Shown: positions 6,734 through 64,000 of the stretch, piece after piece | Position numbering within the stretch: the first letter of the stretch is position 1 | Layout: the number at the start of each line of letters is the position of its first letter | Source: Dehalococcoidia bacterium | GTDB lineage: Bacteria > Chloroflexota > Dehalococcoidia > Tepidiformales > Tepidiformaceae | Assembly (NCBI GenBank): GCA_020847985.1 | Contig: JADLBC010000060.1 | Location: 1-64,000 of the forward strand | Length of the DNA stretch: 64,000 nucleotides | Direction: 5' to 3' | Position numbers and translations under genes: made by a program | Notes under the pieces: model-generated | The model's input: the letters and a program-made list of their open reading frames with translations, nothing else | Databases searched by the model: none | What the model was told of the DNA's origin: nothing

Positions 6734-6806
6734 GGCGAAATCCTATCAACCGCCCGGTTGAGCGCAATTGAGAGGGTTCGCCGGGGCCCGCGTTGCTCCG
6801 TGGCCT

Positions 6807-7637: not shown

Positions 7638-7957
7638 GCTGTGCCTCCGGTCACGAGTTCTACGACGCGCGCGAACCGCCGCCATTCGTCCTTGCGGGCG
7701 TCGATGACGGCGAGCCCGTCGCGCGTGACTGCGTAGGTGCGCCGGCGGCGGCCATCGACCACGGACTCTTCGCTCGCGAGGTGGCCCGCGGCCTCGAGGC
7801 GGTGCAGCGCCGGGTACACGGTCCCTTCGGGGAGGTCGAGCTGGCCGCCGCTGCGTTCGCGCAATGCTTCGATAACGGCGTAGCCATGCGCCGGCCGCCG
7901 CGCGAGGACGGCCAGTACGAGGAGATCGAGGTTGCCGCGCACAAGGTCAGGTCGCAT
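7634..7957 (-). CDS. PadR-family transcriptional regulator
   Basis: This 107-residue winged-helix protein has the PadR core: LDLLVLAVLARRPAHGYAVI, then the recognition region LPEGTVYPALHRLEAAGHL, then the wing with RRRRTYAVT. The C-terminal helix (dimerisation) is short, as in PadR subfamily 1. It probably represses its own two-gene operon with the HAAS membrane protein, whose start codon overlaps its stop. Ligand and targets are unknown. Confidence 0.9.
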   Translation of the reverse strand: MRPDLVRGNLDLLVLAVLARRPAHGYAVIEALRERSGGQLDLPEGTVYPALHRLEAAGHLASEESVVDGRRRRTYAVTRDGLAVIDARKDEWRRFARVVELVTGGTA

Positions 7958-45543: not shown

Positions 45544-46787
45544 CAGGCGAGGATACCGGACGCGCGCAGGGCGGCGATGTCAGCGGGAGCGAAGCCGGCC
45601 GCCGTCATCGCCTCTTCGGTGTGTTCGCCGAGGAGTGGCGCCCGACGGCGGACGCCCGTCCCCGACGAGGTCATCTTGATCGGGCTGTTCACGATGGTCA
45701 CGGGATCGGGCGCGCCCGGCTGTTCGACGGTGGCCAGCATCTGGCGGCGGGCGACATGCGGGTCGCCGAAGATGTCGGCGGAGGTGTGCACAGGCCCGCA
45801 GGGGACGATGCCGCCGAGCAGGTCCTGGACTTCGCGCGTGGTGTGTTTTCGCGTCCAGCCGCCGATCAGTTCGCGAACCTCGGCGGCTCGGGCGACGCGG
45901 TCGGCGTTGGCGGCGTAGCGCTCATCGCGGGCGAGGTCGTGTTCGCCCATGAGGTCGCAGAGCAGTTCCCAGTGGCGTGGGCCGGGCGCGGCGATGCTTA
46001 TCCAGCCGTCGCGCGTGGGGAAGGCATCGAAGGGGACGAGCTGGGGATTGCCCGCTCCCTGCGGCTGCGCGACCACGCCCGAAAACGAATAGAGGTACAC
46101 GATGCGTTCGCACACGGCGAGCACGGCATCGTACATCGCGACATCGACGAGTTGGCCCTGGCCCGTGCGGTCGGCGTGGCGCACGGCCGAGACGATGCCG
46201 AGGGCGAGGTAGAGCGCGGGCGCGAGGTCGCCCATGGGGGCCCCGGCGTTCATCGGCTGCTGCGGGCCGGGGCCGGTCACACCGGTGAGCCCGCCCATCG
46301 CCTGGGCCACGACATCGAACGCGGGCCAGTTCGCATATGGACTTGGCGGCAGCGAGACATCGCCGGTGCGGCCGTCGCCGAAGCCGCGGATGCAGGCGTA
46401 GACGAGCTTCGGGAAGCGTGCGTGCAGGGCCTCGAACGACAGCCCGAAGCGGTCCATGACGCCTTCGCGGTAGTTCTCCACGAGCACGTCGGCGTTTTCG
46501 AGCAGGCGAAGGAGGACGGCGCGGCCTTCCTCACGCGTGAGGTCGAGCGCAAGGCTGCGCTTGTTGCGGTTCACGCTGTGGAAATAGCCGCCGAACAGCT
46601 TCGTCTCGTCGCCGCGGGCGAAGGGGCCCATGCGGCGCGTGCCATCGCCGTGCAGCGGCTCGACCTTGAGCACGTCGGCGCCAAGGTCGGCCAGCAGCAT
46701 CGTGCAGAACGGCCCGGAGAGCGCGTGCGTGAGGTCGACGACACGCAGCCCTTCGAGCGCGCCCGCGGCGAGACCGGGGAGCGTCAC
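45543..46787 (-). CDS. Family III CoA transferase (CaiB/BaiF) - second copy
   Basis: This 414-residue paralogue shows LRVVDLTHALSGPFCTMLLADLGADVLKVEPLHGDGTR, NKRSLALDLTREEGRAVLLRL and VENYREGVMDRFGLSFEALHARFPKLVYA, the same family core as the next gene. The GTG at 46787 is preferred over the ORF start at 46895, which would overlap the acyl-CoA dehydrogenase gene. It lies downstream of the acyl-CoA dehydrogenase gene on the same strand, so all three are probably one transcript. Confidence 0.87.
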   Translation of the reverse strand: MTLPGLAAGALEGLRVVDLTHALSGPFCTMLLADLGADVLKVEPLHGDGTRRMGPFARGDETKLFGGYFHSVNRNKRSLALDLTREEGRAVLLRLLENADVLVENYREGVMDRFGLSFEALHARFPKLVYACIRGFGDGRTGDVSLPPSPYANWPAFDVVAQAMGGLTGVTGPGPQQPMNAGAPMGDLAPALYLALGIVSAVRHADRTGQGQLVDVAMYDAVLAVCERIVYLYSFSGVVAQPQGAGNPQLVPFDAFPTRDGWISIAAPGPRHWELLCDLMGEHDLARDERYAANADRVARAAEVRELIGGWTRKHTTREVQDLLGGIVPCGPVHTSADIFGDPHVARRQMLATVEQPGAPDPVTIVNSPIKMTSSGTGVRRRAPLLGEHTEEAMTAAGFAPADIAALRASGILA

Positions 46788-46809
46788 AGCAGGCGCTCCG
46801 GGCGCACCC

Positions 46810-47973
46810 TCAGGACCCCTTGCCGAGCAAGCGGTCGGAGATGATGCGCAGCTGGATTTCGCTGGTGCCCTCGAAGATCTTGGTGAGGCGGGCATCGCGC
46901 CAGTAGCGTTCGATGGGGAGGTCGGTCGTATAGCCGACGCCGCCGTGAATCTGGAGCGCCTGGCTGGTGACGCGTTCGGCCATCTCCGTCGCGAACCACT
47001 TGGCCATCGAGGCTTCCTTGTCGCAGCGTTCGCGGCGGTCGTCGAGGTCGGCGGCGTGGTACATGAGCTGGCGGGCGGCTTCGATCTCGGCCGCCATTTC
47101 GGCGATCTTGAAGCGAATGGCCTGGAAGTTGGCGATGGGCTGGCGGAACTGCACGCGATGCTTCGCGTAGGTTATGGAGTCTTCGAGCGCGCCGCGCGAA
47201 AGGCCGATGGCGCGGGCCGCGGTGTGCACGCGTGCGGTGGAGAGGCCGCTCATCGTGCCCTTGAGCTGCGTTTCCTCGCGCGCGCCACCGCCCATGAGCG
47301 CGCTCGCCGGCAGCCGGAAGTCATCGAAATGCAGTTCCCAGGTCTTCCAGCCGAAGTAGCCGATCTTGTTGATCTGCGTGGCCTGGAGCCCCGGCGGGAA
47401 CTTCCCGCGCTCCTTTTCGAAAAAGAACATGCCCGTGCCGCCGTGACGGTTGGTGGGGTCCGGGTCTTGCGTGCGGCAGAGGACGGTGATGTAGTCCGCG
47501 CCATCGGCGAAGGTGCACCACATCTTGTTGCCGTTGATCACCCACTCGTCGCCGTCGCGGCGGGCGCGGCAGCTGACGTTGGCGAGGTCGGAGCCGGCTT
47601 CGGGCTCGGAGAGCGCGACCGCGCCGAGGAATTCGCCGCGGACAACGCGCGGGAGGTACTTCTGGCGCTGCTCTTCGTCCGACCATCCGGCGCCGCCGGC
47701 CCGGGCGATGATGCTGGCGACGCTCATCCAGCCGCGCGCGAGCTCTTCGGTGATGAGGCAGTACTCGAAGATCCCCAGCCCGAGCCCGCCGTAATCCGGC
47801 GAGATGCGAATGCCGAAGTAGCCCATCTCGGCCATCTTGTCGCGCAGCGACATGGGGATGTCGCCCTTCACCCGGTCGAGCTCATTCGCGACTGGCAGCA
47901 CTTCCTTCATGGAGAACTCGCGGGCCGTCCGCTGGATGAGTTCCCGGGTTTCGTTCATGTACGTCACTGGCAC
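46810..47973 (-). CDS. Acyl-CoA dehydrogenase
   Basis: This 387-residue FAD enzyme has the N-terminal GYFGIRISPDYGGLGLG, the FAD/acyl-CoA segment VALSEPEAGSDLANV and WVINGNKMWCTFADGADY, the middle beta domain and the C-terminal IHGGVGYTTDLPIERYWRDAR. The catalytic base Glu is in KIFEGTSEIQ. It introduces a double bond in an acyl-CoA, or for some members performs a related oxidation. Start is GTG 47973 or ATG 47958. The substrate presumably belongs to the same CoA-ester pathway as the flanking transferases. Confidence 0.92.
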   Translation of the reverse strand: MPVTYMNETRELIQRTAREFSMKEVLPVANELDRVKGDIPMSLRDKMAEMGYFGIRISPDYGGLGLGIFEYCLITEELARGWMSVASIIARAGGAGWSDEEQRQKYLPRVVRGEFLGAVALSEPEAGSDLANVSCRARRDGDEWVINGNKMWCTFADGADYITVLCRTQDPDPTNRHGGTGMFFFEKERGKFPPGLQATQINKIGYFGWKTWELHFDDFRLPASALMGGGAREETQLKGTMSGLSTARVHTAARAIGLSRGALEDSITYAKHRVQFRQPIANFQAIRFKIAEMAAEIEAARQLMYHAADLDDRRERCDKEASMAKWFATEMAERVTSQALQIHGGVGYTTDLPIERYWRDARLTKIFEGTSEIQLRIISDRLLGKGS

Positions 47974-48054
47974 ACTCCTCCCCGGCGGGGCGTTCCCCGT
48001 TCCGGGTCAATCTCAACAGGTGAAAGCCTTGCCGTCCGCACGGGAGGCCGGCGG

Positions 48055-49425
48055 CTAGCGGGCCCCGGCCATGGCGGGCACCGAGAGACGCACGAGCGCG
48101 TCCATCGATGGCAGCTCTTCCAGCCGGCGCACGGCCTCGACCAGGCTGGCGGTCGCGGCCGCGCCGATGACGGGCGTGGTGAGCCCGCGGAACTTTGCCG
48201 CCAGCCGTTCCCACTGCAGTTCCAGGTCGCTCGCCGGGATGTTCACATCCACGGATTCGCGGAGCACGCGGCCGTCCGTCAGCGTGACGGTCACCTGCGT
48301 GCCGCCCGCGGCCGCGTCGCCGTCGACCTGCACGCGGTCGCGCAGGCTGACGAGCAGGGGGTCGGCGGTGCGCTCGTCGGTGAACGCGAGTTCGCTCGTA
48401 TCGCCGTGGCCGAGCGCGAGGGCTGAGGTGAAGCGCAGGCTGAACTTGCCTTCGAGCGCCGTCGCCGGCTCCTGGATGTTGCACATGCTGAGGGCACCCA
48501 CGGGCACGCGCAGATGGACCGCGCTCACCTGCTCGGGCGTGACGCCGTGCGTCTCCTTGATGCGGAGCAGGCTTTCGATGCTCGAATGGGTGCCGTAGCA
48601 GGCGGCGTGGTACTTGAAGAGCACGCCGCGGATGAAGTACTGGTTGGCCGGGCCCGCCATCGCGCGCGCCGGGTCGAAGGTCGGCCCATGCGTCGCGGCG
48701 AAGCCCTGGTGCGTTTCGAGCGACTCGGTGTTGCTGGTGAAGCCACGGGCGGCCAGCGTCGCCGCCATGAGCCCGTTCGCCGCGGCCTTGCCCGCGTGGA
48801 ACGGCTTGCACATGGTCCCGAACATGGACTTGAGGCCCGCGGCCTGCGCGGCGGCGATGCCGATGACGGTGCGCATCGCCTCACCATCGAGACCTTGCAG
48901 GTTCGCGCACGCCGCGGCCGAGCCGAACGTGCCGAGCGTGCCCGTCGCGTGCCAGCCCTCGGCATAGTGCCCCGGGTTCACGAGCAGGCCGATGCGGCAT
49001 TCGGTTTCGAAGCCGGCGACGAAGGCGGCGATGAAGTCACGCGGGCTGGAGCGCCGCCATTCCGCGAGCGCGAGCAGCCCGGGCACGACCGGCACCGTCG
49101 GGTGGCCCGACATGGCGGTGTGCACGTCGTCGTAATCGAGCGCGTGGGAGGCGGCGCCGTTGACCAAGGCCGCCTGCTGCACCGTCCCGCGCAAGCCCGT
49201 CCCGACGATGGTGGCCTGGGCATTGCCGCCCTGCTCCGCCATTTCGTCCTGGAGGATGCGCGAAAGGGGCTCGCTCGCGCCGGCGATGGTCACCCCGAGC
49301 CAGTCGAGGAGGCACTCCTTCGCGAGGAGCACGACATCGGCCGGGAGGTCGCCGTAGCGGACGTTCGCGGCGAGTTCGGCAACGACGCCGGTGATGGAGG
49401 GCGCGTCCGGGTTGGTCGTGGTCAT
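48055..49425 (-). CDS. MmgE/PrpD-family protein
   Basis: This 456-residue protein belongs to the MmgE/PrpD superfamily, which includes 2-methylcitrate dehydratase, cis-aconitate decarboxylase and iminodisuccinate epimerase. Recognisable blocks are KECLLDWLGVTIAG, AALVNGAASHALDYDDVH, GTLGTFGSAAACANLQGL, KPFHAGKAAANGLMAA and the C-terminal HAACYGTHSSIE. The ATG at 49425 is preferred (MTTTNPDAPS), since the extension overlaps the binding-protein gene. Chemistry should be dehydration, hydration, decarboxylation or epimerisation of a polycarboxylic acid. It is the only gene here that would act on the free acid. Confidence 0.88.
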   Translation of the reverse strand: MTTTNPDAPSITGVVAELAANVRYGDLPADVVLLAKECLLDWLGVTIAGASEPLSRILQDEMAEQGGNAQATIVGTGLRGTVQQAALVNGAASHALDYDDVHTAMSGHPTVPVVPGLLALAEWRRSSPRDFIAAFVAGFETECRIGLLVNPGHYAEGWHATGTLGTFGSAAACANLQGLDGEAMRTVIGIAAAQAAGLKSMFGTMCKPFHAGKAAANGLMAATLAARGFTSNTESLETHQGFAATHGPTFDPARAMAGPANQYFIRGVLFKYHAACYGTHSSIESLLRIKETHGVTPEQVSAVHLRVPVGALSMCNIQEPATALEGKFSLRFTSALALGHGDTSELAFTDERTADPLLVSLRDRVQVDGDAAAGGTQVTVTLTDGRVLRESVDVNIPASDLELQWERLAAKFRGLTTPVIGAAATASLVEAVRRLEELPSMDALVRLSVPAMAGAR

Positions 49426-49439
49426 GGCTGCCTCCGTGC

Positions 49440-51212
49440 TCAGGTCGACTTCCAACGGTACGGGTAGGTCTCGGCCGGGCTCCCGTAACCGGTGGTGAGG
49501 AAGGTATCGCCGTTCTTGAGCCAGGACTGGTGGGCCGACCAGCTGGTCGCGGCGCGGTACTGGCTCGGGATGTAGTACATGTTCTGCGCGTTGAGCCGCT
49601 GGATTTCGTAGAACATCTCGCGGCGCTTCTGTTCGTTCGATTCCGACTGCTGGTCGACGGCGAGTTTCGCGAGCTGGGCGTCCTTGATCTTGCCGCGGTT
49701 CTTCGGGTTATCGGTGTAGAGCCGGATCGGGTAGCTGCCCGCTTCGGTGAAGGTGGTTTCGGGGCCGAAAGCGATGCCCTTGAAGTTCCCGACCGATGTC
49801 TGGGTGATGTACTTCGAGTTGTAGTCCTGCACTTCGAAGGTCATCTGCAGGCCGAGCGAAATGAGGTACTGGCCGCTCGCCTCGGCGATGTCGTTGAAGT
49901 CCTTGCCGTAGCGGTTGCCCGCGTACTGCCAGACGCCGGCGAAGCCGTTCGGGAAGCCGGCCGCCGCGAGCAGCTTCTTCCCTTCGGCGACGTTGTAGGC
50001 GAAGTACTTGCCCGTTTCGCCGTGCGCCGATGACTTCGGGTCGAGCCAGAACCGCGTCATGCCCGCGGGGATGACGTTGTTCCAGCCGCTCTTCACATCG
50101 AGCCCGGCGGCGCGCAGCCGGTTGACGCTGAAGCCGAGGTCGTTGAGGGCCTCGCGGTCGAGGGCCATCGAAATCGCCTGGCGGACGCGGGGGTCGCGCC
50201 ACGGGGCAGCGGGATCGGAATCGAAGTAGACGTAGCTGTTCTGCTGCGAGAGCGTGCCCACGAGCACGATCTCCTTGTTCTTCTGCTTCACGTCGACGAG
50301 GTCATCGGCACTGAGGCCAGAGCTATCGGTGTTGCCCGCGCGGAACTGGGCGAGCCGGTTCGCGTACTCGGGGATGATCGAGACCTGCACCCCGTCCATG
50401 AGCGGGAAGCCGTTCTCGTGCCACGCCGGGTTCTTCTTCCATTTGTGGCCCACGGCGGGCGTGTAGCTTTCGAAGATCCAGGGGCCGCTGCCGATGGAGA
50501 GCTTCGCCGGGTCGAACTTGCCGCCCGACTCCGTGGGCATCACCCAGAAGAGGTTCGTATCGGAGAGCACTTCGAGGAAGGCGACGTTCGGCGCCTTCAG
50601 CGTGAACACCACGGTCGATGCATCGGGGAATTCGACCTTGTCCACGAAGTCGACCTGGGACGCGTTCGGCTGCTTGGGGTCGACCATGCGGCCCCAGGAG
50701 TACTTCACGTCCTCGGTGGTGACGGCGCGGCCGTTCACGGGGGCGACGTCGTGGAACTTCGCGCCCGGCTTGAGCGTGATAGTCCACTTGAGGCCGTCAG
50801 GCGAGGCTTCCGCCTTCTGGGCGAGGTCGGGCGTCGGCTTCACGTCGGCCGCCGCGATGCCCGGGCCTGCCTTGAACTTGTACAGGCGGCTATAGGCGAA
50901 GGCGGCGAAATCCTTGGTGAGAAAGCTCGTGTTCCCGTAGGGGTCGATGGACGGCGGGTCGCCGGTGGAATCGATGTTGTAGACGCCGCCCTTTTTCGCG
51001 TTGGCGAAGGGGTCGGTAGGGGTGGGCGAGGCGTTGGCGGCGGGCGTCGCGGTCGCGAGCGAGGTGGTGCCGCCTCCGCTCTCGCCGTCGTCATCGCCGC
51101 AGCCCGCGAGTGCCAGGCCGGCGGCGCCGGCGGCGAAGGCGGCGCCGCTGCCGAGGATGCGCCGCCGCGGCAGGCGCCGCGCGGCATGGCGTTCCCAGTA
51201 AGACTGTCCCAT
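49440..51212 (-). CDS. Tat-exported lipoprotein, SBP_bac_5-family binding protein
   Basis: This 590-residue binding protein has a Tat-like signal (PRRRILGSGAAFAAGAAGLALAGCG) with a lipobox Cys. An Asp/Gly/Thr linker and a family-5 fold follow (KWTITLKPGAKFHDVAPVNGRAVTTEDVKYSWGRM; PWRDPRVRQAISMALDREALNDLG). It lies upstream of the MmgE/PrpD gene and probably supplies the substrate. No permease is encoded nearby. The ATG at 51212 is preferred over 51707, which would give 165 residues of unrelated sequence. It is divergent from the lyase gene. Confidence 0.9.
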   Translation of the reverse strand: MGQSYWERHAARRLPRRRILGSGAAFAAGAAGLALAGCGDDDGESGGGTTSLATATPAANASPTPTDPFANAKKGGVYNIDSTGDPPSIDPYGNTSFLTKDFAAFAYSRLYKFKAGPGIAAADVKPTPDLAQKAEASPDGLKWTITLKPGAKFHDVAPVNGRAVTTEDVKYSWGRMVDPKQPNASQVDFVDKVEFPDASTVVFTLKAPNVAFLEVLSDTNLFWVMPTESGGKFDPAKLSIGSGPWIFESYTPAVGHKWKKNPAWHENGFPLMDGVQVSIIPEYANRLAQFRAGNTDSSGLSADDLVDVKQKNKEIVLVGTLSQQNSYVYFDSDPAAPWRDPRVRQAISMALDREALNDLGFSVNRLRAAGLDVKSGWNNVIPAGMTRFWLDPKSSAHGETGKYFAYNVAEGKKLLAAAGFPNGFAGVWQYAGNRYGKDFNDIAEASGQYLISLGLQMTFEVQDYNSKYITQTSVGNFKGIAFGPETTFTEAGSYPIRLYTDNPKNRGKIKDAQLAKLAVDQQSESNEQKRREMFYEIQRLNAQNMYYIPSQYRAATSWSAHQSWLKNGDTFLTTGYGSPAETYPYRWKST

Positions 51213-51317
51213 CGCGTTCCCAGAGCTCCTTGCGTGCGGCCGCATTCCCCTTGCGGCCCTTGTTCGCAAATCGATTGGCCGCGCGAATCGCGGGTATCGA
51301 CCTGCTCCCGGCGCGCG

Positions 51318-51347
51318 CATTCTGCATGGAATGTTTGGGGTTGACAA
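51318..51347. promoter_or_regulatory. Divergent promoter/operator region between binding protein and CoA lyase
   Basis: On the minus strand TTGTCA (complement of 51342-51347) and CAGAAT (complement of 51319-51324) form a promoter with a 17-base spacer for the binding-protein operon. On the plus strand TTGACA (51341-51346) is a candidate -35 for the lyase gene, with only a weak -10. An inverted repeat CATTC-N6-GAATG (51318-51333) overlaps the minus-strand -10 and could be an operator. GTTGACAAC is nearly palindromic over both -35 boxes. Confidence 0.4.
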
Positions 51348-51483
51348 CATACTGGCAGGCTCACACCATGCGCCCCATCGCGGGCCCCGCCGAGACCCCC
51401 TCCAGCGGACCGCCTTGCCTCGCCGCGACGGTCCGGGATTCCGGCCGTCGCGCACCGGGGACACCGCCAGGAGCCACATTCGC

Positions 51484-52407
51484 ATGAGCAACCGCCCGTT
51501 CCGCCTTCGCCGTTCCGAACTTTCGACGCCCGGCACGAGCGACAAGATGATGGCGAAGGCCGCGGCCAGCGATGCCGACCTCGTGTTCCTCGACCTTGAG
51601 GACGCCGTCGCGCCATCGGCCAAGGCGGGCGCGCGCCAGCCCATCATCGAAGCGCTCAACGGGCTCGACTGGGGCACGAAGACGCGGGCGGTCCGCATCA
51701 ACAGCACGGAAACGCCCTGGTGCTACGAGGACGTGACCGACATCGTCACGCATGCCGGCCAGAACCTGGACGTGATCATCATCCCCAAGGTCAAAGCCCC
51801 GCGTGACGTGTGGTTCGTCGACACGCTGGTTTCGCAGATCGAGTTGGCGAAGGGCCTGCCGCTCGGGCGCATCGGCATCGAAATCCTCATCGAGGAGGTC
51901 GAGGCACTCGCGCGTGTGGAAGAGATCGCCGGGTGCTGTTCGCGCCTTGAGGCGATGATCCTCGGCGTCGGTGACCTCTCCGCGAGCCAGGGCATGCGCA
52001 CGGGCCACATCGGTTCGACCGCCGACGCCCGCTACCCGGGCGACATCTGGCATTACGCCCGCACGCGCATGATCGTGGCCGCACGGGCACACGGGCTCGA
52101 CGCCATCGATGGTCCCTTCGCGAATTTCAAGGACCCCGAGGGATACCGTCGCGACGCCGGCTGGGCCGCTTCGCTGGGCGCGGTCGGTAAGTGGGCTATC
52201 CACCCCAGCCAGGTCGAAATCGCCAACGACGTGTTCTCGCCGACCGACAAGGAGATCGAGCGCGCGAAGGAGATGGTGGAGCGCGTGCGTGCGGCCGAGG
52301 CGGGCGGAGACGGCGCCGCCAATGCCGGCGGCGTCATGGTCGATGCGGCCACGGCACGCATTTTCGAACTCATCCTGGAACGGGCGCGGCTGACCGGTCG
52401 AATCTAG
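51484..52407 (+). CDS. HpcH/HpaI-family CoA-ester lyase (malyl-CoA / citramalyl-CoA lyase type)
   Basis: This 307-residue enzyme matches the L-malyl-CoA/beta-methylmalyl-CoA lyase group in its conserved blocks: SELSTPGTSDKMMAKAAASDADLVFLDLEDAVAPSAKA in outline, ALNGLDWG, VRINSTETPW, IIIPKVKAPRDVW, MILGVGDLSASQGM and GKWAIHPSQVEIANDVFSP. It should cleave or form a 2-hydroxyacyl-CoA into acetyl-CoA or propionyl-CoA plus glyoxylate or pyruvate. The ATG at 51484 (MSNRPFRLRR) is chosen over the unrelated extension to 51331. Metal ligands are expected at the Glu/Asp of VFLDLEDAVA and the GVGDLSAS region. Confidence 0.87.
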   Translation: MSNRPFRLRRSELSTPGTSDKMMAKAAASDADLVFLDLEDAVAPSAKAGARQPIIEALNGLDWGTKTRAVRINSTETPWCYEDVTDIVTHAGQNLDVIIIPKVKAPRDVWFVDTLVSQIELAKGLPLGRIGIEILIEEVEALARVEEIAGCCSRLEAMILGVGDLSASQGMRTGHIGSTADARYPGDIWHYARTRMIVAARAHGLDAIDGPFANFKDPEGYRRDAGWAASLGAVGKWAIHPSQVEIANDVFSPTDKEIERAKEMVERVRAAEAGGDGAANAGGVMVDAATARIFELILERARLTGRI

Positions 52408-54549: not shown

Positions 54550-54580
54550 AAACGGCGGGACCTCACCGGTCCCGCCGTTT
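54550..54580 (+). terminator. Rho-independent-type terminator after the chemoreceptor gene
   Basis: AAACGGCGGGACC (54550-54562) pairs perfectly with GGTCCCGCCGTTT (54568-54580) across a 5-base loop, ending in TTT, 11 bases after the stop. The best terminator in the window. Confidence 0.8.
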
Positions 54581-54582
54581 GA

Positions 54583-54734: not shown

Positions 54735-57700
54735 GTGACCATCAGCAGCCTGCTCATCGCCAATCGCGGCGAAATCGCCATCCGCATCGCACGTGCCGCG
54801 GCGGACCTCGGCATCCGCACCGTTTCCGTCTTCTCCGAGGACGACGCCCGGAGCCTCCACACACGCACCACCGACGCCAGTCACGCGCTCACCGGCAGCG
54901 GCGCGGCGGCGTACCTGGACATCGCGGCGATGGTCACGGCCGCGCGCGCGACCGGCTGCGACGCCGTCCACCCCGGCTACGGCTTCCTCGCGGAGAGCGC
55001 CGCTTTCGCCCGTGCCTGCGGCGAGGCGGGCATCACGTTCGTGGGCCCCGCGGTCGACCAGCTGGAACTCTTCGGCGACAAAGCACGGGCGCGCCGCGCG
55101 GCGGTGGCCGCCAGCGTGCCGGTGCTCCGCGGCCTCGACCACCCGGTCACGCTCGACGAGGCACGCGCCTTCTTCGATTCGCTCGGCCCCGGTGGAGCGA
55201 TGATCATCAAGGCGGTGGCCGGCGGCGGCGGCCGGGGCACGCGTGCCGTGCTCGCCGCGGGCGACCTCGAAAGTGCCTACCAGCGATGCCAGTCGGAGGC
55301 CCGCGCCGCCTTCGGGAACGCGGATGTCTACGTCGAGGAGTTCGTTCCCCGCGCGCATCATATCGAGGTCCAGGTCGTGGGCGATGCCACCGGGGCCATT
55401 GCCCAGCTGGGCGAGCGCGACTGCAGCATCCAGCGCCGCTTCCAAAAGGTCATCGAGATGGCGCCCGCACCCGGGCTGGATCCGGCGCTGCGCGACGCGA
55501 TGCATGCCGCCGCCGTCCGTTTCGCCCGCGAAACCGGGTACCGGAGCCTGGGCACCTTCGAGTTCCTGGTGGATGTCACCGGGCGCGCGGGCTCGGAACC
55601 GTTCGTGTTCATCGAAGCGAACGCCCGCCTGCAGGTGGAGCACACGGTCACCGAGATGGTCACCGGGATCGACCTCGTGCAGACGCAGTTGCGAATCGCC
55701 GGGGGCGCGACACTCGCGGACCTGGGGCTCGACCGCCCGGGCGCGGCCGAACCGCGCGGTTTCGCCGTCCAGGCGCGCGTGAACATGGAGAGCATCGCCG
55801 CGGACGGCAGCGTGCGGCCGGGCGGCGGCACGCTTTCCGTGTACGAGGCGCCGGGAGGCCCGGGTGTACGCGTCGATGGCTTCGGATACGCGGGCTACCG
55901 CACCAGCACGGCGTTCGATTCGCTGCTGGCGAAGGTCATCGGCCACGCCGCGGGCGATGGTCCGCGTGCCGCCATCGCGCGCACTGCCCGCGCCCTCGCT
56001 GAGTTCCGCATCGACGGCGTGGCGACGAACATCGCGTTTCTCCAGCGCATCCTCGCGCACGACGGCCTCGCGACGGGGACCACGCACACGCGCTGGGTCG
56101 AGGAGCACATCGCGGAACTGGCGGCCGAGGGGCCGGAAGCGCCACGCCGTTATGTCGAACCGGGCGAGGCAGCCCGCGATGAGGGCTTCGCCGGCGCCCG
56201 CGTGAGCAGCCGCGACCCGCTCGCGCTCTTCGCCCACGATGCGGACGTGAAGGCTCGCACGGCGGGGACCGCGGGGCAGGAGCAGCCAGCATTGACGCGT
56301 GCCGACGGCGCCGTGGGCCTTCCCGCGCCAATCCAGGGAACAATCGTGAGCATCGATGTCGTGCCCGGGAGCGAAGTGCGAAGGGGCCAGCAGGTCGCGG
56401 TCGTCGAGGCGATGAAGATGGAGCACGTCGTCGCCGCCGACCGCGACGGCATCGTCCGCGACGTGACGATGGCCGCCGGGGACGTCGTGCGCGAGGGCTA
56501 CCCCATCGTCTTCATCGAGGCTGCCGAGGTGCAGGGCGAGACCGGCGAGACCACCGGCGGCATCGACCCCGACTACATCCGTCCCGACCTCCAGGAGAAC
56601 CTGGACCGGCACGCGCACACGCTGGATGAGCAGCGCCCGGAGGTCGTCGCCAAACGGCACGCACGTGGGTACCGCATGCCGCGCGAGAACATCGCCGCGC
56701 TCGTGGACCCGGGATCGTTCAAGGAGTACTGGCCGCTCATCGTCGCGCGGCAGCACCAGCGGCACGACATGGAGACGCTGCGCCGCGACACGCCGGCCGA
56801 CGGGCTCATCGCGGGGACCTGCGCCATTAACGGCGACCGCTTCGCCGACGAGCGTTCGCGCGCGATTGTGGTGCACTACGACTACACGGTGCTGGCGGGC
56901 ACGCAGGGCGGCCGCAACCACTACAAGCAGGACCGCATGTTCGAACTCGCCCACCGCTTCCGGATGCCGGTGGTCTTGTTCGGCGAAGGCGGCGGCGGGC
57001 GCCCCGGCGACGATGCCACCGGCCCGCGCGTCGCCTTCGATACCGGGACGTTCACGACCTTTTCGCGGTTGAGCGGGCTGGTGCCGCTGATTTCGATCGT
57101 GAACGGCCGCACCTTCGCGGGGAATACCGCGCTCGTCGCCGCCTGCGACGTGATCATCGCGACGGAGGGGAGCACGCTGGCCATGGGCGGGCCCGCGATG
57201 ATCGAGGGCGGCGGGCTCGGCATCTACACCCCGGAGGAAGTGGGGCCGATGTCGTTCCAGGTGCCGAACGGCGTCGTGGATATCCTCGTGAAAGATGAGA
57301 CGGAAGCCGTGGCCGTGGCCCGCCGCTACCTCTCGTATTTCCAGGGGCCGGTGGCGGAGTGGGAAGCGCCGGACCAACGCCCGCTGCGCCACGTCGTCCC
57401 CGAAAACCGCCTGCGGCTCTACGACATGCGCGAAATCCTTCGCACCATCGCCGACCGCGATTCGGTGCTGGAGATCCGCGAGCGCTTCGGGGTGGGGGTA
57501 ATCACGGCGTTCATCCGCGTCGAAGGGCGGCCGATGGGGGTCATCGCGAACAACCCGCATCACCTCGCCGGCGCGATCGATTCCGATGGCGCGGACAAGG
57601 GTGCGCGCTTCCTCCAACTCTGCGACGCCTTCGATATCCCCGTGCTGAGCCTCATGGACTGCCCGGGCATCATGGTCGGGCCCGACCACGAACGGACGGC

Positions 57701-58133
57701 GCTCGTGCGGCACGCGCTGCGCATGTTCAACGCCGGCGCGAACATGACGACGCCGCTCTTCGGGGTCATCGTGCGGAAGGCGTACGGACTGGGGGTGCAG
57801 GCGATGTGTGGCGCGAGCGCGCTCGTCGGCTTCTTCACCGTCGCCTGGCCGACGGCGGAGTTCGCGGGGATGAACATCGAGGGCTCGGTGAAGCTTGGCT
57901 ACCGCAAGGAGCTCGCCGCCATCGAGGACCCGGAAGAGCGCCGCCGGGAGTTCGACCGGCGGGTGGCGCGCGCATATGAGGGGGCGAAGGCGGTAAACGC
58001 CGCGGTGGGCGGCGGGCTCGATGACGTGATCGACCCGGCGGAGACGCGCGACTGGATCGCGCAGAGCCTGCGCCGCCTGCCAGCGGTGGCGCCCCGCGAC
58101 GGCAAAAAATACCCCTACATTGATCCCTGGTAG
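54735..58133 (+). CDS. Single-chain biotin-dependent acyl-CoA carboxylase (BC-BCCP-CT)
   Basis: This 1132-residue protein fuses all three activities. The biotin carboxylase (about 1-450) has LIANRGEIAIRIARAA, AGGGGRG, HHIEVQ, RDCSIQRRFQKVIE and the EANARLQVEHTVTE active-site segment. The biotinyl domain carries EAMKMEHV (biotinyl Lys about 561). The carboxyltransferase (about 620-1110) has LAGTQGGRNHYKQDRMFELA, GGPAMIEGGGLG, MDCPGIMVGP and NIEGSVKLGYRKEL. It should carboxylate an acyl-CoA such as acetyl-, propionyl- or a longer acyl-CoA. Most bacteria use two or three chains. The GTG at 54735 is chosen because GGGGGG precedes it and conserved sequence starts immediately. Confidence 0.9.
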   Translation: MTISSLLIANRGEIAIRIARAAADLGIRTVSVFSEDDARSLHTRTTDASHALTGSGAAAYLDIAAMVTAARATGCDAVHPGYGFLAESAAFARACGEAGITFVGPAVDQLELFGDKARARRAAVAASVPVLRGLDHPVTLDEARAFFDSLGPGGAMIIKAVAGGGGRGTRAVLAAGDLESAYQRCQSEARAAFGNADVYVEEFVPRAHHIEVQVVGDATGAIAQLGERDCSIQRRFQKVIEMAPAPGLDPALRDAMHAAAVRFARETGYRSLGTFEFLVDVTGRAGSEPFVFIEANARLQVEHTVTEMVTGIDLVQTQLRIAGGATLADLGLDRPGAAEPRGFAVQARVNMESIAADGSVRPGGGTLSVYEAPGGPGVRVDGFGYAGYRTSTAFDSLLAKVIGHAAGDGPRAAIARTARALAEFRIDGVATNIAFLQRILAHDGLATGTTHTRWVEEHIAELAAEGPEAPRRYVEPGEAARDEGFAGARVSSRDPLALFAHDADVKARTAGTAGQEQPALTRADGAVGLPAPIQGTIVSIDVVPGSEVRRGQQVAVVEAMKMEHVVAADRDGIVRDVTMAAGDVVREGYPIVFIEAAEVQGETGETTGGIDPDYIRPDLQENLDRHAHTLDEQRPEVVAKRHARGYRMPRENIAALVDPGSFKEYWPLIVARQHQRHDMETLRRDTPADGLIAGTCAINGDRFADERSRAIVVHYDYTVLAGTQGGRNHYKQDRMFELAHRFRMPVVLFGEGGGGRPGDDATGPRVAFDTGTFTTFSRLSGLVPLISIVNGRTFAGNTALVAACDVIIATEGSTLAMGGPAMIEGGGLGIYTPEEVGPMSFQVPNGVVDILVKDETEAVAVARRYLSYFQGPVAEWEAPDQRPLRHVVPENRLRLYDMREILRTIADRDSVLEIRERFGVGVITAFIRVEGRPMGVIANNPHHLAGAIDSDGADKGARFLQLCDAFDIPVLSLMDCPGIMVGPDHERTALVRHALRMFNAGANMTTPLFGVIVRKAYGLGVQAMCGASALVGFFTVAWPTAEFAGMNIEGSVKLGYRKELAAIEDPEERRREFDRRVARAYEGAKAVNAAVGGGLDDVIDPAETRDWIAQSLRRLPAVAPRDGKKYPYIDPW

Positions 58134-58320
58134 TAACCGGGCGCCGGGCGGTTCCCTTGCCGCCGCCGCGCCTTTACCGGCCGGTAGATTCGCGCCGGAC
58201 ACCGGACCGAACCGGGACCGCCACGTTCGCACCGATTGCTTAGGGTTTTTATCGATACGCGAAGTTCGTCGTAAGAGTTTCCGATGATTGAGATGTGGCA
58301 ACGACCGCATGGAGTCGGGG

Positions 58321-58734
58321 ATGAACGACGCGAACCAGGGGGCGCCCGCGGGGCGGCAGCCCTACGTGATGTACGTCGAGGACAATCGCGCGAATGCGTT
58401 GCTCGTCGAACGGGCCCTGGCGGCGCACGCCAATGTGACGCTGTCGGTCATCCCGAACGCCGAGGAGGCGCTCGTGCGCATCGCCAGCCACACCCCCGAC
58501 CTGATGCTGCTCGACCTCCACCTGCCCGGCATGTCCGGTGAGGACCTGCTGGTAAGGCTACGCGGGGAATCGCGCTTCGCGGGCTTGCCGGTCGTCATCA
58601 TTACCGCCGACGCGGCGGCCGCGACCTCCGACCGGCTGCTGGCGCGGGGGGCGACGATGCACATGACCAAGCCCATCGATATCCGCATGCTCGTGGATGT
58701 CGTCCGCAAATTCACGCAACGGGGTCCACAGTGA
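58321..58734 (+). CDS. Single-domain response regulator
   Basis: This 137-residue receiver-only protein has YVEDN (acidic pair), LLDLHLPGMSG (phospho-acceptor Asp), IITAD (conserved Thr) and TKPID (conserved Lys). No output domain is present. The ATG at 58321 is preferred (MNDANQGAPA) after GTCGGGG. The following kinase gene starts on its stop (GTGA), so it is probably a partner phospho-carrier of that kinase. Confidence 0.92.
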   Translation: MNDANQGAPAGRQPYVMYVEDNRANALLVERALAAHANVTLSVIPNAEEALVRIASHTPDLMLLDLHLPGMSGEDLLVRLRGESRFAGLPVVIITADAAAATSDRLLARGATMHMTKPIDIRMLVDVVRKFTQRGPQ

Positions 58735-60542
58735 AACGCCTCACCACGGGAACCCGGGCGAGCGCGGTGGCGGCGGCAGGCATCATGGTGGTACTGGCGC
58801 TGCTCACCGTGTACGAAGTGATAGCCACCAAGCGGGCGCAGAACTCGCTCAAGGATGTACAACGCGCGAGTGAACTCGCGGACTCGTACCAGGCGGCGCG
58901 CACGGGCGTGCTGCAGGTCGAACTGACCGTTCGCACCATGATGGTCGAGCCGGGCGACGTCGATCCCGCCGTCCTGGTCCCGGAAATCGACTACGTGATG
59001 GCGCAGACGAACCGCATCAAGCTCATCGGGCAGGACGAGGACCGCGCGCTGGTCCAGGCGTACTACGACCACTACCTCGGCGCGCTGAACATCCTGAAGC
59101 TCGCCGTGGCGGCGCATATCGATTTCGCCACCCTCCAGTCGAGCCTTCCCGCCGAGTCGGTCGCCCCTGCGATTCGCATGGACTTCGACCAGATGGCCGC
59201 CGAGCGCCAGGCGCAGGCGGATGCCGCGCTCGAAGGCTACCGGCACGACCAGGACACGCGTCTGTTTGTCACGAGCCTGCTCAATGCCGCCGGTCTCGCG
59301 ATGGTCGTCTTCCTCGCGTTCGGCCTGCGCTACTACAGCCGCCGCGAAGCACGCATGGTCGCCATGCAGGCCGCGCAGAGCGAACTCGAAACCGCGCGCG
59401 ACGAGGCGGACCGCGCGAACGCCGCGAAGAGCCAGTTCCTCAGCCGCATGAGCCACGAACTGCGCACGCCGATGAACGCCGTCCTGGGCTTCGGGCAGCT
59501 GCTCGAAATGGACGACCTCACCGAGACACAGCGCGAGAACGTCTCCTTCATCATGCGCTCGGGCCGGCACCTGTTGCGGCTGATCGATGAGGTGCTCGAC
59601 ATCTCGCGCATCGAAGCCGGGCGGCTTTCGCTCAGCCTGGAGCCGTTCGACATGGCGGATGTGGTGAAGGACGTGCTGGACATGTCGGCCCCCATCGCGG
59701 CCGACCACGGCATCCGCGTCCAATGCTGCGAGGGCGAGGTTCCGCAGTGGCGGGTGATCGGCGATGTCCAGCGCACCAAGCAGGTGCTCCTCAACCTCGT
59801 CTCGAACGCCATCAAGTACAACAAGCCGGGCGGCACGGTGGAAATCCACGGCGAACAGCTCCCGGGCGGTGAAATGCGCCTCTCCGTGCGCGACACCGGT
59901 CGCGGCATCTCCCTCGACAGCATGAGCCGCGTCTTCAGCCCGTTCGACCGCCTGGGCGCGGATGCGACGACGATCGAGGGCACTGGCCTCGGCCTGGCGC
60001 TCTCCAAGGCGCTCGTCGAAGCCATGTCCGGCCGGCTGGAAGTCGAGAGCGTCGAAGGCCAGGGCTCCACGTTCTCCGTGGTGCTGCCGGCGGCCACGGC
60101 CGCTCCCGCCGTCCCCGCTGGCTTCGCGGAATACCGCGAACGGCTCGCGCCCATCGGCCGTGTCGTGTGCGTGGAAGACAACGCCGCCAGCTACCACGTG
60201 GTCGAAGGCGCGATGCGGCACCTGGGCATCGACTGTATCCGCGCCGGCACCGTGACCGACGGCATCGACCAGGTGTTCGCGACTCGTCCCGGCCTGGTGA
60301 TCGTCGACCTTCACCTGGAAGGCGGCGATGGCGCGGCCGTCCTGCGCGGCCTGCGCACCCACCCGGAAATGGCGGAACTGCCGATCATCGTGATGAGCGC
60401 GGACACGACGGAGCGCACGCGGCGAACGGTCCTCGCGCAGGGCGCCGACGCATTCGTGGGCAAGCCGATCGACTTCGCCCAGCTGGTGGAAACGATGGCG
60501 CGGGTGATCGAGCCGCGGGAGGCAAGGCAGCATGCAGCCTGA
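58731..60542 (+). CDS. Hybrid sensor histidine kinase with C-terminal receiver
   Basis: This 603-residue kinase has two transmembrane helices (GIMVVLALLTVYEVIA and AAGLAMVVFLAFGL) around a short periplasmic loop, then a coiled-coil linker. The HisKA has SHELRTPMNAVLGFG (His about 242) and the ATPase has DTGRGIS and GTGLGLALSK. A C-terminal receiver follows (CVEDNAAS; VDLHLEGGDG; MSADTT; GKPID). A GTG start overlaps the receiver-gene stop. It should phosphorylate its own receiver and the flanking response regulators. Confidence 0.92.
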   Translation: MKRLTTGTRASAVAAAGIMVVLALLTVYEVIATKRAQNSLKDVQRASELADSYQAARTGVLQVELTVRTMMVEPGDVDPAVLVPEIDYVMAQTNRIKLIGQDEDRALVQAYYDHYLGALNILKLAVAAHIDFATLQSSLPAESVAPAIRMDFDQMAAERQAQADAALEGYRHDQDTRLFVTSLLNAAGLAMVVFLAFGLRYYSRREARMVAMQAAQSELETARDEADRANAAKSQFLSRMSHELRTPMNAVLGFGQLLEMDDLTETQRENVSFIMRSGRHLLRLIDEVLDISRIEAGRLSLSLEPFDMADVVKDVLDMSAPIAADHGIRVQCCEGEVPQWRVIGDVQRTKQVLLNLVSNAIKYNKPGGTVEIHGEQLPGGEMRLSVRDTGRGISLDSMSRVFSPFDRLGADATTIEGTGLGLALSKALVEAMSGRLEVESVEGQGSTFSVVLPAATAAPAVPAGFAEYRERLAPIGRVVCVEDNAASYHVVEGAMRHLGIDCIRAGTVTDGIDQVFATRPGLVIVDLHLEGGDGAAVLRGLRTHPEMAELPIIVMSADTTERTRRTVLAQGADAFVGKPIDFAQLVETMARVIEPREARQHAA

Positions 60543-61656
60543 GCGCCCGGTGGCGGCAGCGCGAGTCCCGGCCGGTCCCACAGCCCCGCCGGAGCTCGCG
60601 AACAGCCGGATCCTGGTCGTCGACGACCAGCCGCTGAACCTCAAGCTGATCGAGGCGATCCTCGGGCGCGCCGGCTACACCGGCGTCGCCTGCTTGCCCG
60701 AACCCCGCCAGGTCCGGCCGTTGTGCGAACGGGTGATGCCGGACCTCGTGATGCTCGACCTGCACATGCCGGGGCTCGATGGCTTCGGGGTGATGGCCGA
60801 GCTGGCGCCGCTCGTCGGCCGGGACGACTACTTCCCCATCCTCGTGGTGACGGCCGATATCACGCGGGAGACGCGCGAGCGCGCCCTGCGAGGCGGCGCG
60901 AAGGACTTCCTGACCAAGCCCGTGGACGCCACCGAAGTGGTGCTGCGCGTGGGCAACCTGCTGCAAACACGGCACCTGTACGCCAACCTGCGCCAGCTCA
61001 ATGGCGAGCTCGAGCGGCGGGTGGCCCTGCGCACGGAGCAGCTCGAACGGGCGCACGATGAGCTGCTGGAACGGCTCGCGCTCGCGGCGGACTACCGCGA
61101 CGACATCACGGGCGCCCACTCGCGGCGCGTGGCGAGCGGCGCCGCCCGCCTGGGCGCGATGCTCGGCATGAACGAACGAGACGTGCGGCTCCTGCAGCAT
61201 GCGGCCGTGCTCCACGACTTCGGCAAGATCGCGATCCCGGATTCGGTGCTGCTGAAGCCGGGGTCGCTCACCAACGACGAATTCGCGCTGATGCGCAGCC
61301 ACACCACCATCGGTGCATCGCTGCTGGCGGGAAGCCAGTTCCCCACGCTCGTGCTCGGGCAGGAACTGGCGCGGATGCACCACGAACGCTGGGACGGCCG
61401 GGGATACCTGGGCCTGACCGGCGACGCGGTGCCGCTCACGAGCCGCATCGTCGCCGTCGCCGACGTGTTCGATGCGCTCATCCACGTGCGACCGTACAAG
61501 AAGGCCTGGCCGCTGAGCGAGGCCGTGGACGAGATTGCCCGCGGCCGGGGCACGCAGTTCGACCCCGAAGTGGTGGCCGCCTTCCTCGGAGACGACCTGG
61601 ACGGCTACATCGGCCAATCCGAAGGCATGGACTGGGGCCCGTCCGAGGCGGCCTGA
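60532..61656 (+). CDS. Receiver-HD-GYP protein (c-di-GMP phosphodiesterase type), GYP changed to GYL
   Basis: This 374-residue protein has an N-terminal receiver (VVDDQPLN; LDLHMPGLDG; VTADIT; TKPVD), a coiled coil and an HD-GYP domain with ITGAHSRRV, AVLHDFGKIAIPD (His-Asp 228-229) and HHERWDGRGYLGL. In canonical members the last motif is GYP; here Pro is Leu. Other HD ligands look intact. It should degrade c-di-GMP when phosphorylated, but the substitution leaves activity uncertain. The ATG overlaps the end of the kinase gene by 11 bases. Confidence 0.87.
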   Translation: MQPERPVAAARVPAGPTAPPELANSRILVVDDQPLNLKLIEAILGRAGYTGVACLPEPRQVRPLCERVMPDLVMLDLHMPGLDGFGVMAELAPLVGRDDYFPILVVTADITRETRERALRGGAKDFLTKPVDATEVVLRVGNLLQTRHLYANLRQLNGELERRVALRTEQLERAHDELLERLALAADYRDDITGAHSRRVASGAARLGAMLGMNERDVRLLQHAAVLHDFGKIAIPDSVLLKPGSLTNDEFALMRSHTTIGASLLAGSQFPTLVLGQELARMHHERWDGRGYLGLTGDAVPLTSRIVAVADVFDALIHVRPYKKAWPLSEAVDEIARGRGTQFDPEVVAAFLGDDLDGYIGQSEGMDWGPSEAA

Positions 61657-62061
61657 CCGCCAGGCGCTCCTCGCACGTCCGAACGCAGCTTCGCACCGCT
61701 CACGCTGACCAACGGTCTCGATAGCCTTCGGCCGCTCTGCCCCGGAGACATGCCGGTGTCGGCGCCGCGCAGCCCGGCCACTTCGCCGGCCGCCGCCGTC
61801 GAGTTCCCCGTCGCGGCGCTGGGATGCATCCGGCGTAGTGGCCGGTGCATTCGGCTCCTCGCATTCGCCTGTTCGTCCGGGCTCGGCAGGGCGCGGCATC
61901 GGTGAGGCTCGCGCACTCGACTGGAGCGTTCGCTCGTTTCGTCCGGGCTCGGCATGGCCCCGGTGAGAATCGATGAGCGCCGCGCTTTCGGCCAGCGCAG
62001 GTGACCCCTGGTCCCCTACCGCTCTCGCGCGCCGGGTGACCGGACAACCGGGTGCCGGGAA
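61657..62061. other. 405-base non-coding gap between convergent genes
   Basis: No gene or tRNA-like fold is seen. The gap has a degenerate direct repeat: TTCGTCCGGGCTCGGCA occurs at 61871-61887 and 61937-61953, 66 bases apart, with similar flanks. The small ORFs here differ in frame and lack family features. It may hold a 3' structured region shared by the two convergent transcripts or an insertion remnant. Confidence 0.55.
61871..61953. repeat. Direct repeat with 66-base spacing in the convergent gap
   Basis: A 17-base exact core (TTCGTCCGGGCTCGGCA) is repeated 66 bases apart. Both copies are followed by GGC-rich sequence and CGGTGAG, and preceded by TTCGC-type sequence, suggesting a decayed tandem duplication. 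Confidence 0.7.
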
Positions 62062-64000
62062 TCAGGCGGCGGTGGTGTGGTCGATCGCTTCAAGAACGCG
62101 GATGAGGTCCTCTGGCTCCAGGGGCACCGGCAGGAAGGCGTCGCATCCCAGCGGCTTCCAGGAACGCTCGAACTCGTCGCGGTCGCGGGGACCGACGACG
62201 ACGAGGCGCGCGCGCGCGTTTGGCGCGCCGGGCCGGCGAATGTGCTGGCCGATGAGCTCCTGCACGTTCGGCAGGCCACCATCGACGACGACGGTGAACG
62301 CTCGCCAGCTATCGGAGAGCAGCTTGCCCTCGATCGTGTTCTCGGCCTGCACGAGCTTCACGCCGGTGCGGCGGGCGAGCACACGTTCGACAAGTTGGCG
62401 GCGGGACCAGTCGCCGTCGATGTGAAGGATGGAGAGCGGCGCGGTTCGCGCCCCGGCTGGCGCCGCTTCGCCGCTGCGCCGGGCGAGGGGGAGAAAGACG
62501 GTGAAACGCGTCCCCTTGCCGGGCACGCTATCGACCTGGATGGAGCCGTACATGGCCTCGACGAGGGCCTTGCTCAACACCAGGCCCAGGCCGGTGCCTT
62601 CGATGCCCCGGCGGTCGGCGTCGAGGCGCTCGAAGGGGTTGAACATGCGGCTCATTTTTTCGGGGGCGATTCCGGGACCGTTGTCGACGACGCTGATGGC
62701 CACACGGCCGGCGCGGGTCACGCCAGAACGAATGACGACGGTGCCGCCCGCTTCGTTGTACTTAATGGCGTTCGATACCAGGTTCAGGAGCACCTGCTTG
62801 AGGCGCGCCGCGTCGGCGAGCACGCCGGTGACATCCGGGCCGTCGTCGCGGCGGAGGGTGATGTGCGCGGCCGCCGCAAGGGGCGCCGTCATCTCCATCA
62901 CCTGGCCGATGACGTCGCCGCAGCGCACCGGCGCAATCTCGACCTTCATCCGGCCGGCTTCGATGCGGGAGATGTCGAGCACCTCGTCGATGAGGCGCAG
63001 GAGGTGCTGGCCCGAGCTCATGATGTAGTCGACGTTCTCGCGCTGCTCCGGCGTAAGGTCCTCGAGCTGGAGGAGCTGGCCAAAGCCGAGGACGGCGTTC
63101 ATTGGCGTGCGCAGCTCATGGCTCATGCGCGAGAGGAACTGGCTCTTGGCGGCGTTAGCCGTGTCGGCGGAATCGCGCGCGGTGCCAAGCTCCTGCACCT
63201 GGGCCTCGAGCTGAACTCGCATCCGCTCAAGGCCGGCATTGAGGTTGAGGTTATCGAGGATGACGACGAGCTGCCGCACCAGCGCCAGGCCGAGCACGAC
63301 CACGATCAGGGCGAGCGACACGCGATGCGCGCCGAACCCATCGTCCCACCCCACGTACGCGCCCAGGCCGATCATCGCGGCGGCGGTGAAGATGGGCACC
63401 AGGTTGTGGGCACGGCTTACGGCGACCTGGCGCTCATCTTCGCGCGCGACCTGGATCCCGCTTCGCACACGGGTGAACGCCCCGATGCCAACGAGAAGGT
63501 AGCCTGCCATCCAACCGGCATCGATGAACCCGGGCGTATAGCCGCCCCGCAGGTCGGCGTAGAGGAACGCGGAATCGGCAGCGACAAACGCCGCGACACC
63601 CCCGCCGAGGCCCAGGAAGACGCTGGCGTCGCGCCTCAGGCCAACGCGGTAGGCGAGCGTGATCACCGCCCAGAGCAGCGTGATGTCGGTCACGGGGTAA
63701 GCAGTCGCGAGGGCGACTTCGAGGCGAGTTCCGGTGCTCCCGGCCATGGTGGGTTCCATGACGAACGCCCAGCCCACCGCCGTGAGCGCCAGTGCCAGGC
63801 TCGATCCCTCGAACAGCGCTCGCAGCTGCGCGTGCCAGCGGCGCTGGCTCCCGACCATTGTCATGCCCGAGACCAGGAAGAGCGTCCCGCCCAGGTAGAA
63901 GGCATCCGCGATGGACGGGAAGGGATCGGTCTTGAGGATGATCTCGTCGTAGGCCCAGATCCACTCGGCCACGGACCAGCAGAGCACCCCGGCAGCGAAG
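62062..64000 (-). CDS. Membrane sensor histidine kinase with degenerate receiver, N-terminus beyond window
   Basis: The frame stays open past 63987 to the window edge, so the true start lies outside. The visible product has an N-terminal multi-helix membrane sensor (several helices, e.g. YPVTDITLLWAVITLAY), a coiled-coil linker and HisKA (SHELRTPMNAVLGFG). The ATPase (GTGLGLVLSK) and a C-terminal receiver-like domain follow. In the receiver (LHIDGD; VVVDGGLPN; PVPLEP) the phospho-acceptor Asp is present but the conserved Lys is lost, so it looks like a pseudo-receiver. The HisKA is closely similar to that of the kinase at 58731-60542, indicating paralogy. Confidence 0.87.
   Translation of the reverse strand, partial: FAAGVLCWSVAEWIWAYDEIILKTDPFPSIADAFYLGGTLFLVSGMTMVGSQRRWHAQLRALFEGSSLALALTAVGWAFVMEPTMAGSTGTRLEVALATAYPVTDITLLWAVITLAYRVGLRRDASVFLGLGGGVAAFVAADSAFLYADLRGGYTPGFIDAGWMAGYLLVGIGAFTRVRSGIQVAREDERQVAVSRAHNLVPIFTAAAMIGLGAYVGWDDGFGAHRVSLALIVVVLGLALVRQLVVILDNLNLNAGLERMRVQLEAQVQELGTARDSADTANAAKSQFLSRMSHELRTPMNAVLGFGQLLQLEDLTPEQRENVDYIMSSGQHLLRLIDEVLDISRIEAGRMKVEIAPVRCGDVIGQVMEMTAPLAAAAHITLRRDDGPDVTGVLADAARLKQVLLNLVSNAIKYNEAGGTVVIRSGVTRAGRVAISVVDNGPGIAPEKMSRMFNPFERLDADRRGIEGTGLGLVLSKALVEAMYGSIQVDSVPGKGTRFTVFLPLARRSGEAAPAGARTAPLSILHIDGDWSRRQLVERVLARRTGVKLVQAENTIEGKLLSDSWRAFTVVVDGGLPNVQELIGQHIRRPGAPNARARLVVVGPRDRDEFERSWKPLGCDAFLPVPLEPEDLIRVLEAIDHTTAA

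Follow-up and report, generated by a model that had tools for sequence, protein, structure and literature searches.

The window analysed here, a 64,000-nucleotide stretch of a Dehalococcoidia metagenome-assembled genome (MAG; about 94% complete), carries on its plus strand at 54735-58133 a frame of 1132 codons that runs without interruption to a stop and encodes a carboxylase with a predicted mass of 120.8 kDa. Pfam domains, all far above cut-off, cover the chain as Biotin_carb_N (residues 3-109), CPSase_L_D2 (115-328), Biotin_carb_C (346-457), Biotin_lipoyl (531-593) and Carboxyl_trans (641-1113). The open frame and these domains confirm the original prediction, which had placed biotin carboxylase (BC), biotin carrier (BCCP) and carboxyltransferase (CT) domains in that order on one 1132-residue chain. 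The gene, its domains and the features around it are listed below.

54735..58133, plus strand: single-chain biotin-dependent acyl-CoA carboxylase gene (open frame, Pfam, full-length orthologues, fold match to 4rcn and 5fif)
54741..56105, plus strand: BC domain, residues 3-457 (Pfam, alignment of relatives)
56325..56513, plus strand: BCCP domain, residues 531-593, with the AMKM biotinylation motif and Lys561 (Pfam, alignment)
56655..58073, plus strand: CT domain, residues 641-1113 (Pfam, comparison with 4rcn and 5fif)
54550..54582, plus strand: perfect G+C-rich hairpin just 3′ of the upstream chemotaxis-receptor gene (RNA fold −36.8 kcal/mol, z −5.2)
44254-45543 and 45543-46895, minus strand: two CoA_transf_3 genes (Pfam)
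46810-47973, minus strand: acyl-CoA dehydrogenase
48055-49455, minus strand: MmgE/PrpD
49440-51707, minus strand: SBP5 solute-binding protein, start probably further in
51331-52407, plus strand: CitE/RipC-like lyase

Full-length orthologues in other genomes, at 69-79% identity, rule out a chance frame, and the gene is thus real. The GTG start at 54735 coincides with the beginning of the alignments to these orthologues. Mechanical extension of the frame reaches a TTG at 54579, and the added stretch is unmatched in relatives and abuts the strong hairpin. This hairpin is terminator-like with a short T run; a simple promoter and terminator scan returned nothing and did not call it. Its position between the chemotaxis receptor and the carboxylase suggests that the carboxylase probably starts its own transcript. 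Repeats and base composition around the gene are unremarkable, and the only Rfam match over the window is one tRNA.

The residues expected of a working enzyme are in place. Lys116, Lys159, His209, Lys238, Glu276, Glu294, Asn296, Arg298, Glu302 and Arg348, which we take from E. coli AccC to be the known acting residues of biotin carboxylases, are invariant in 28 aligned relatives with identities down to 51%, and the AMKM motif with Lys561 likewise shows no variation across them. The CT motifs AGTQG..NH.K, EGGGGRPGD and GGPAMIEGGGLG are common to the window protein, 4rcn and 5fif; EGGGGRPGD stands where PCC-beta has DSGGARIQEG. The protein is very probably a working single-chain acyl-CoA carboxylase.

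The gene is flanked by a chemotaxis receptor upstream and signalling genes downstream, and no CoA-transferase or transporter was seen directly beside it. The signalling group (58288-63987) contains a response regulator, a hybrid histidine kinase and a response regulator with an HD domain, together with a histidine kinase on the opposite strand. Gene order was compared with relatives for signs that the gene had been inserted: genomes G001, G010 and G012 lack any match to the response regulator downstream, and those in G002 and G017 reach only about 51%. Further upstream, the group at 44254-52407 looks like C5-acid catabolism: its second CoA_transf_3 gene (45543-46895) resembles succinyl-CoA:mesaconate CoA-transferase, and a homologue of its CitE/RipC-like lyase directly adjoins a CoA-transferase in G001 and G002.

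Membership in the single-chain family

The best sequence matches among solved structures are 4rcn, a long-chain acyl-CoA carboxylase (LCC; 1060 bits, collinear), and then 5fif/5h80, with identities of 47% to 4rcn and 50% to 5fif. The CT sequence of 5fif matches a Deinococcus radiodurans record letter for letter; 5h80 is presumably also the single-chain carboxylase (YCC) of this species. We searched for related folds with an AlphaFold2 model of the window protein (mean pLDDT 77.5), whose pTM of 0.48 does not fix the relative placement of the domains; 4rcn again came first (47%), and the CT of 5fif aligned with TM up to 0.94 at 2.6-2.7 Å. The kinship with the single-chain mycobacterial enzyme of about 120 kDa that had been proposed from the sequence alone is therefore upheld by both sequence and fold, and the window protein is a member of the LCC/YCC family of single-chain acyl-CoA carboxylases. 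NCBIfam holds no model for this family, and its best models, pyruvate carboxylase and AccC, fall well short of their cut-offs and match chiefly the BC part. Pyruvate carboxylase (581.6 bits against a cut-off of 965) and urea carboxylase (463.5 bits against 1303.85) were both rejected; in each case the BC part gave the best match. PCC-beta and methylmalonyl-CoA decarboxylase alpha are homologues of the CT domain.

The ATP-grasp loop at residues 163-168 reads GGGGRG, which had been singled out as a departure from the usual GGGGKG. This does not hold up, since GGGGRG occurs in 59 of the 60 single-chain relatives whose loop was readable (the remaining one has GGGGHG), and the loop is hence the norm of the family. 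The same loop is found in LCC (4rcn), the D. radiodurans enzyme, the host AccC and a host MCC-alpha-like protein, which rules it out as a special feature; GGGGKG occurred only in split alpha subunits of actinobacterial loci.

To place the protein we used a quick IQ-TREE phylogeny of 79 CT domains, in which long outgroup branches were flagged. A single clade with support 100 (68 rows) unites the single-chain proteins, 4rcn and 5fif included, and lies apart from the split beta subunits. Within it, the window protein falls in a 20-row subclade, here called subclade A (support 100), whose members come from Chloroflexota, Alpha- and Gammaproteobacteria, Acidobacteriota and Actinomycetota, whereas 4rcn clusters outside it among LCC-side rows such as Tsukamurella. 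Rhodopila globiformis is a cultured organism that has a subclade-A gene. The phylogeny against single-chain long-chain carboxylases that the original prediction had called for thus puts the protein in the same supported clade as LCC, but not in LCC's own subclade. Two further single-chain paralogues of the host, C56 (60% identity) and C23 (54%), belong to a neighbouring subclade in which nearly all genomes are from the family and class of the host.

The distribution of subclade A is patchy. Out of 37 searched genomes of the host family, 4, counting the host itself, encode an orthologue with at least 74% identity, and in an even draw of 201 Chloroflexota genomes close members of subclade A were found only in that family. 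Horizontal transfer is the simplest reading of this pattern, although some of the contigs come from MAGs and could be misbinned.

Shorter and duplicated forms also occur among the relatives. Four proteins of Hydrogenophaga, Limnohabitans and other Comamonadaceae (L074, L075, L076 and L077) consist of BCCP-CT only (626-672 aa) and are nested among the single-chain enzymes; the BC domain has seemingly been lost from these chains, so a separate BC must serve them. Both Comamonadaceae genomes that were checked hold several other BC genes. Paired single-chain carboxylase genes of different subclades lie in tandem in Sphingomonas immobilis (L064, 8001-14538) and converge in L127 (7935-16219).

Elsewhere, the host genome encodes AccC (513 aa), a fused AccD-AccA (602 aa), a PCC-beta-like subunit (515 aa), MCC-alpha-like (648 aa) and MCC-beta-like (546 aa) proteins and one further CT subunit. 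Given these separate subunits, the window enzyme is an addition to the housekeeping carboxylases and not the main acetyl-CoA or propionyl-CoA carboxylase. Independent subunits forming the main enzyme had been named in advance as telling against the prediction; they are indeed in the genome, but alone they do not refute an active enzyme.

Class III CoA-transferases beside the orthologues

We then compared the neighbourhoods of the orthologues, with loci oriented on the carboxylase, genes called by a codon-usage script, and calls and clusters left uncurated. A class III CoA-transferase adjoins the carboxylase in 10 of the 20 subclade-A loci, the window copy being left out. Such genes make up 10 of 36 adjacent genes and 2 of 181 farther ones (p = 2.5e-7), and they are the commonest Pfam family of near neighbours (11 of 69 proteins; the runner-up has 3). 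No Pfam set is common to all orthologous neighbourhoods, and the CoA-transferase alone recurs often. AMP-forming ligases behave in the opposite way: none stands beside the carboxylase in the 20 subclade-A loci, whereas on the LCC side an AMP-binding ligase is adjacent in five of nine loci and a CoA-transferase in none. In annotated records, the ligase gene lies directly upstream of the carboxylase in D. radiodurans, Tistrella and Acuticoccus.

In six loci, namely G010, G012 and G056 of the host's class, two Gammaproteobacteria MAGs and a Phenylobacterium MAG, the CoA-transferase is a tandem protein of 812-835 aa that is encoded on the same strand and ends 20-135 bases upstream of the carboxylase. 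Loci that differ more in the tandem also differ more in the carboxylase (Spearman 0.92, from 15 pairs that are not independent of each other). In G012 the tandem is preceded by a TetR-like regulator, an SBP5-like solute-binding protein and two permeases, corresponding to an SBP5-type ABC transporter. Outside subclade A, the tandem CoA-transferase also accompanies the carboxylase, in place of a ligase, on two plasmid records, one from Haematobacter (divergent, annotated) and one from a Cupriavidus (downstream). Two Phenylobacterium MAGs (L049 and L059) carry the carboxylase between a ybgC-like thioesterase gene and tolQ/tolR-like genes, with the tandem present in L049 and absent in L059; either the pair was inserted and the tandem later lost, or the two arrived separately.

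Catalysis by class III CoA-transferases relies on an Asp (PMC9813914). In every tandem or gene pair examined beside single-chain carboxylases (L127, L128, L129, L048, L049, L060, L047, L063, L131, L137, L135, L161 and L162), this Asp is kept in one half only and is replaced in the other by Gly, Gln, Leu, Glu, His, Tyr or Ala. In the L127 tandem (5453-7894), the Asp is in the C-terminal half and the N-terminal half has Gly. Among solved structures, the active half comes closest to a benzylsuccinate CoA-transferase subunit (9fn0), an entry with two different subunits. One Asp-bearing and one Asp-less half, together with this two-subunit match, suggest that the tandem or pair is probably an active/inactive hetero-pair.

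In the host, such a pair lies upstream of the C23 paralogue, though not contiguous with it, and the tandem itself has no match in the roughly 94% complete genome at E ≤ 1e-100. The two minus-strand CoA-transferases at 44254-46895 in the window were considered as the missing partner and rejected: neither has lost the Asp, their identity to the tandem halves is 25-30%, and the resemblance of the better of the two to succinyl-CoA:mesaconate CoA-transferase counts against tandem orthology. At least 39-40 class III CoA-transferase genes were scored in most genomes of the host and of family f1 (about 3 Mb), numbers that recall the expansion reported for SAR202 (PMC5395668). DddD, the DMSP enzyme, is a CaiB-type protein too (PMC5395668).

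Reaction, substrate and role

By homology, the BC domain would carboxylate biotin with bicarbonate, at the cost of ATP, on Lys561, the predicted site of biotinylation; the BCCP domain would carry the carboxybiotin to the CT domain, which would pass CO2 to an acyl-CoA and so form a carboxylated CoA ester of the malonyl type. The enzyme may form a homohexamer, on the analogy of LCC. A role in the catabolism of imported organic acids would have a class III CoA-transferase make the CoA ester and carboxylation follow. Overall, we consider it likely that the gene encodes an active enzyme of the LCC/Deinococcus family that belongs to a distinct subclade and most likely serves catabolism. Against the catabolic role, the window copy lacks an adjacent CoA-transferase or transporter, the tandem is missing from the host genome at the threshold above, and half of the orthologues stand without a CoA-transferase. 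The dozens of class III CoA-transferases per genome also raise the odds of such a neighbour within the host family, but not for the proteobacterial loci.

Three other readings were weighed against this one. A true long-chain acyl-CoA carboxylase would share with LCC not only its architecture, its family and 47% identity to 4rcn but also its activity, which spans C2 to C16 with a far lower Km for palmitoyl-CoA, as the account of Tran et al. 2015 given in PMC6491548 has it. We regard a C2-C16 range with palmitoyl-CoA preference as rather unlikely here, because the protein lies in a different supported subclade, because the ligases usual beside LCC-side relatives adjoin none of the 20 subclade-A loci, and because its residue at the PCC-specificity position is that of the Deinococcus enzyme. 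This residue, Gln1022, aligns with Asp407 of 6ybp and Asp422 of ScPccB; the position is Gln in the Deinococcus enzyme, Met in LCC and Ile in 6ybq, a variant of 6ybp. An Asp there has a role in propionyl-CoA carboxylase specificity (PMC7835884), so Gln1022 counts against a dedicated propionyl-CoA carboxylase, and no more than that. LCC's broad substrate range may thus not carry over to the window protein, given its separate subclade and orthologues that adjoin CoA-transferases rather than ligases.

That the enzyme is the organism's acetyl-CoA or propionyl-CoA carboxylase would agree with the homology of its CT domain noted above. This is nonetheless very improbable, considering the AccC, fused AccD-AccA, PCC-beta-like and MCC-like alpha and beta subunits elsewhere in the genome, the replaced PCC-type Asp and the few orthologues among host-family genomes. 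A non-functional gene, or an artefact of assembly or fusion, would account for the missing metabolic partner directly beside the gene in the window, but it is scarcely credible when full-length orthologues with the same fusion occur in several phyla, all catalytic residues are kept and there is no internal stop.

For the preferred reading, that of an active, probably catabolic carboxylase, our best guess at the substrate, a tentative one, is a short or polar acyl-CoA that would be formed by CoA transfer from an imported acid. More speculatively, subclade A might carry out the carboxylation in an acid-catabolic pathway that has yet to be described. An unusual acyl-CoA would there be supplied by a class III CoA-transferase of two parts, one bearing the catalytic Asp and the other lacking it, either fused or encoded by a gene pair. 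Carboxylase and CoA-transferase would then have moved together between Chloroflexota and Proteobacteria, and the window copy would be either a stand-alone remnant or the user of another host CoA-transferase.

The enzyme type is already solved and published, and the gene itself is ordinary; only the CoA-transferase link exceeds routine annotation, and it bears less on the window copy than on its orthologues. It separates single-chain carboxylases associated with ligases (LCC, Deinococcus) from those associated with CoA-transferases (the orthologues of the window protein), and this split of partners offers a testable handle on the substrates of members to which none has been assigned. It may further be relevant to the question of why Dehalococcoidia in the host family carry several single-chain carboxylases and dozens of class III CoA-transferases.

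Among known systems, mycobacterial LCC (4rcn) resembles the window protein in its single chain of about 120 kDa, BC-BCCP-CT order, GGGGRG loop and CT motifs, and differs in its limited identity, its separate subclade, the Met at the specificity position and the activation genes that adjoin its relatives. The D. radiodurans YCC (5fif) shares the architecture, 50% identity over the CT domain and the Gln, but it sits on the LCC side of the tree and its gene (locus L163) follows and overlaps one for an AMP-binding acyl-CoA ligase. Split carboxylases of the PCC and MCC type (6ybp, 3n6r, 3u9s) have homologous BC, BCCP and CT domains and the same two half-reactions, whereas they are divided into an alpha subunit (BC-BCCP) and a beta subunit (CT), with about 30% CT identity and other CT motifs. 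Single-chain pyruvate carboxylase is alike in its BC domain (the NCBIfam model matches over residues 3-459) and in chain length; its carboxyltransferase, however, is of another family than the Carboxyl_trans domain of the window protein.
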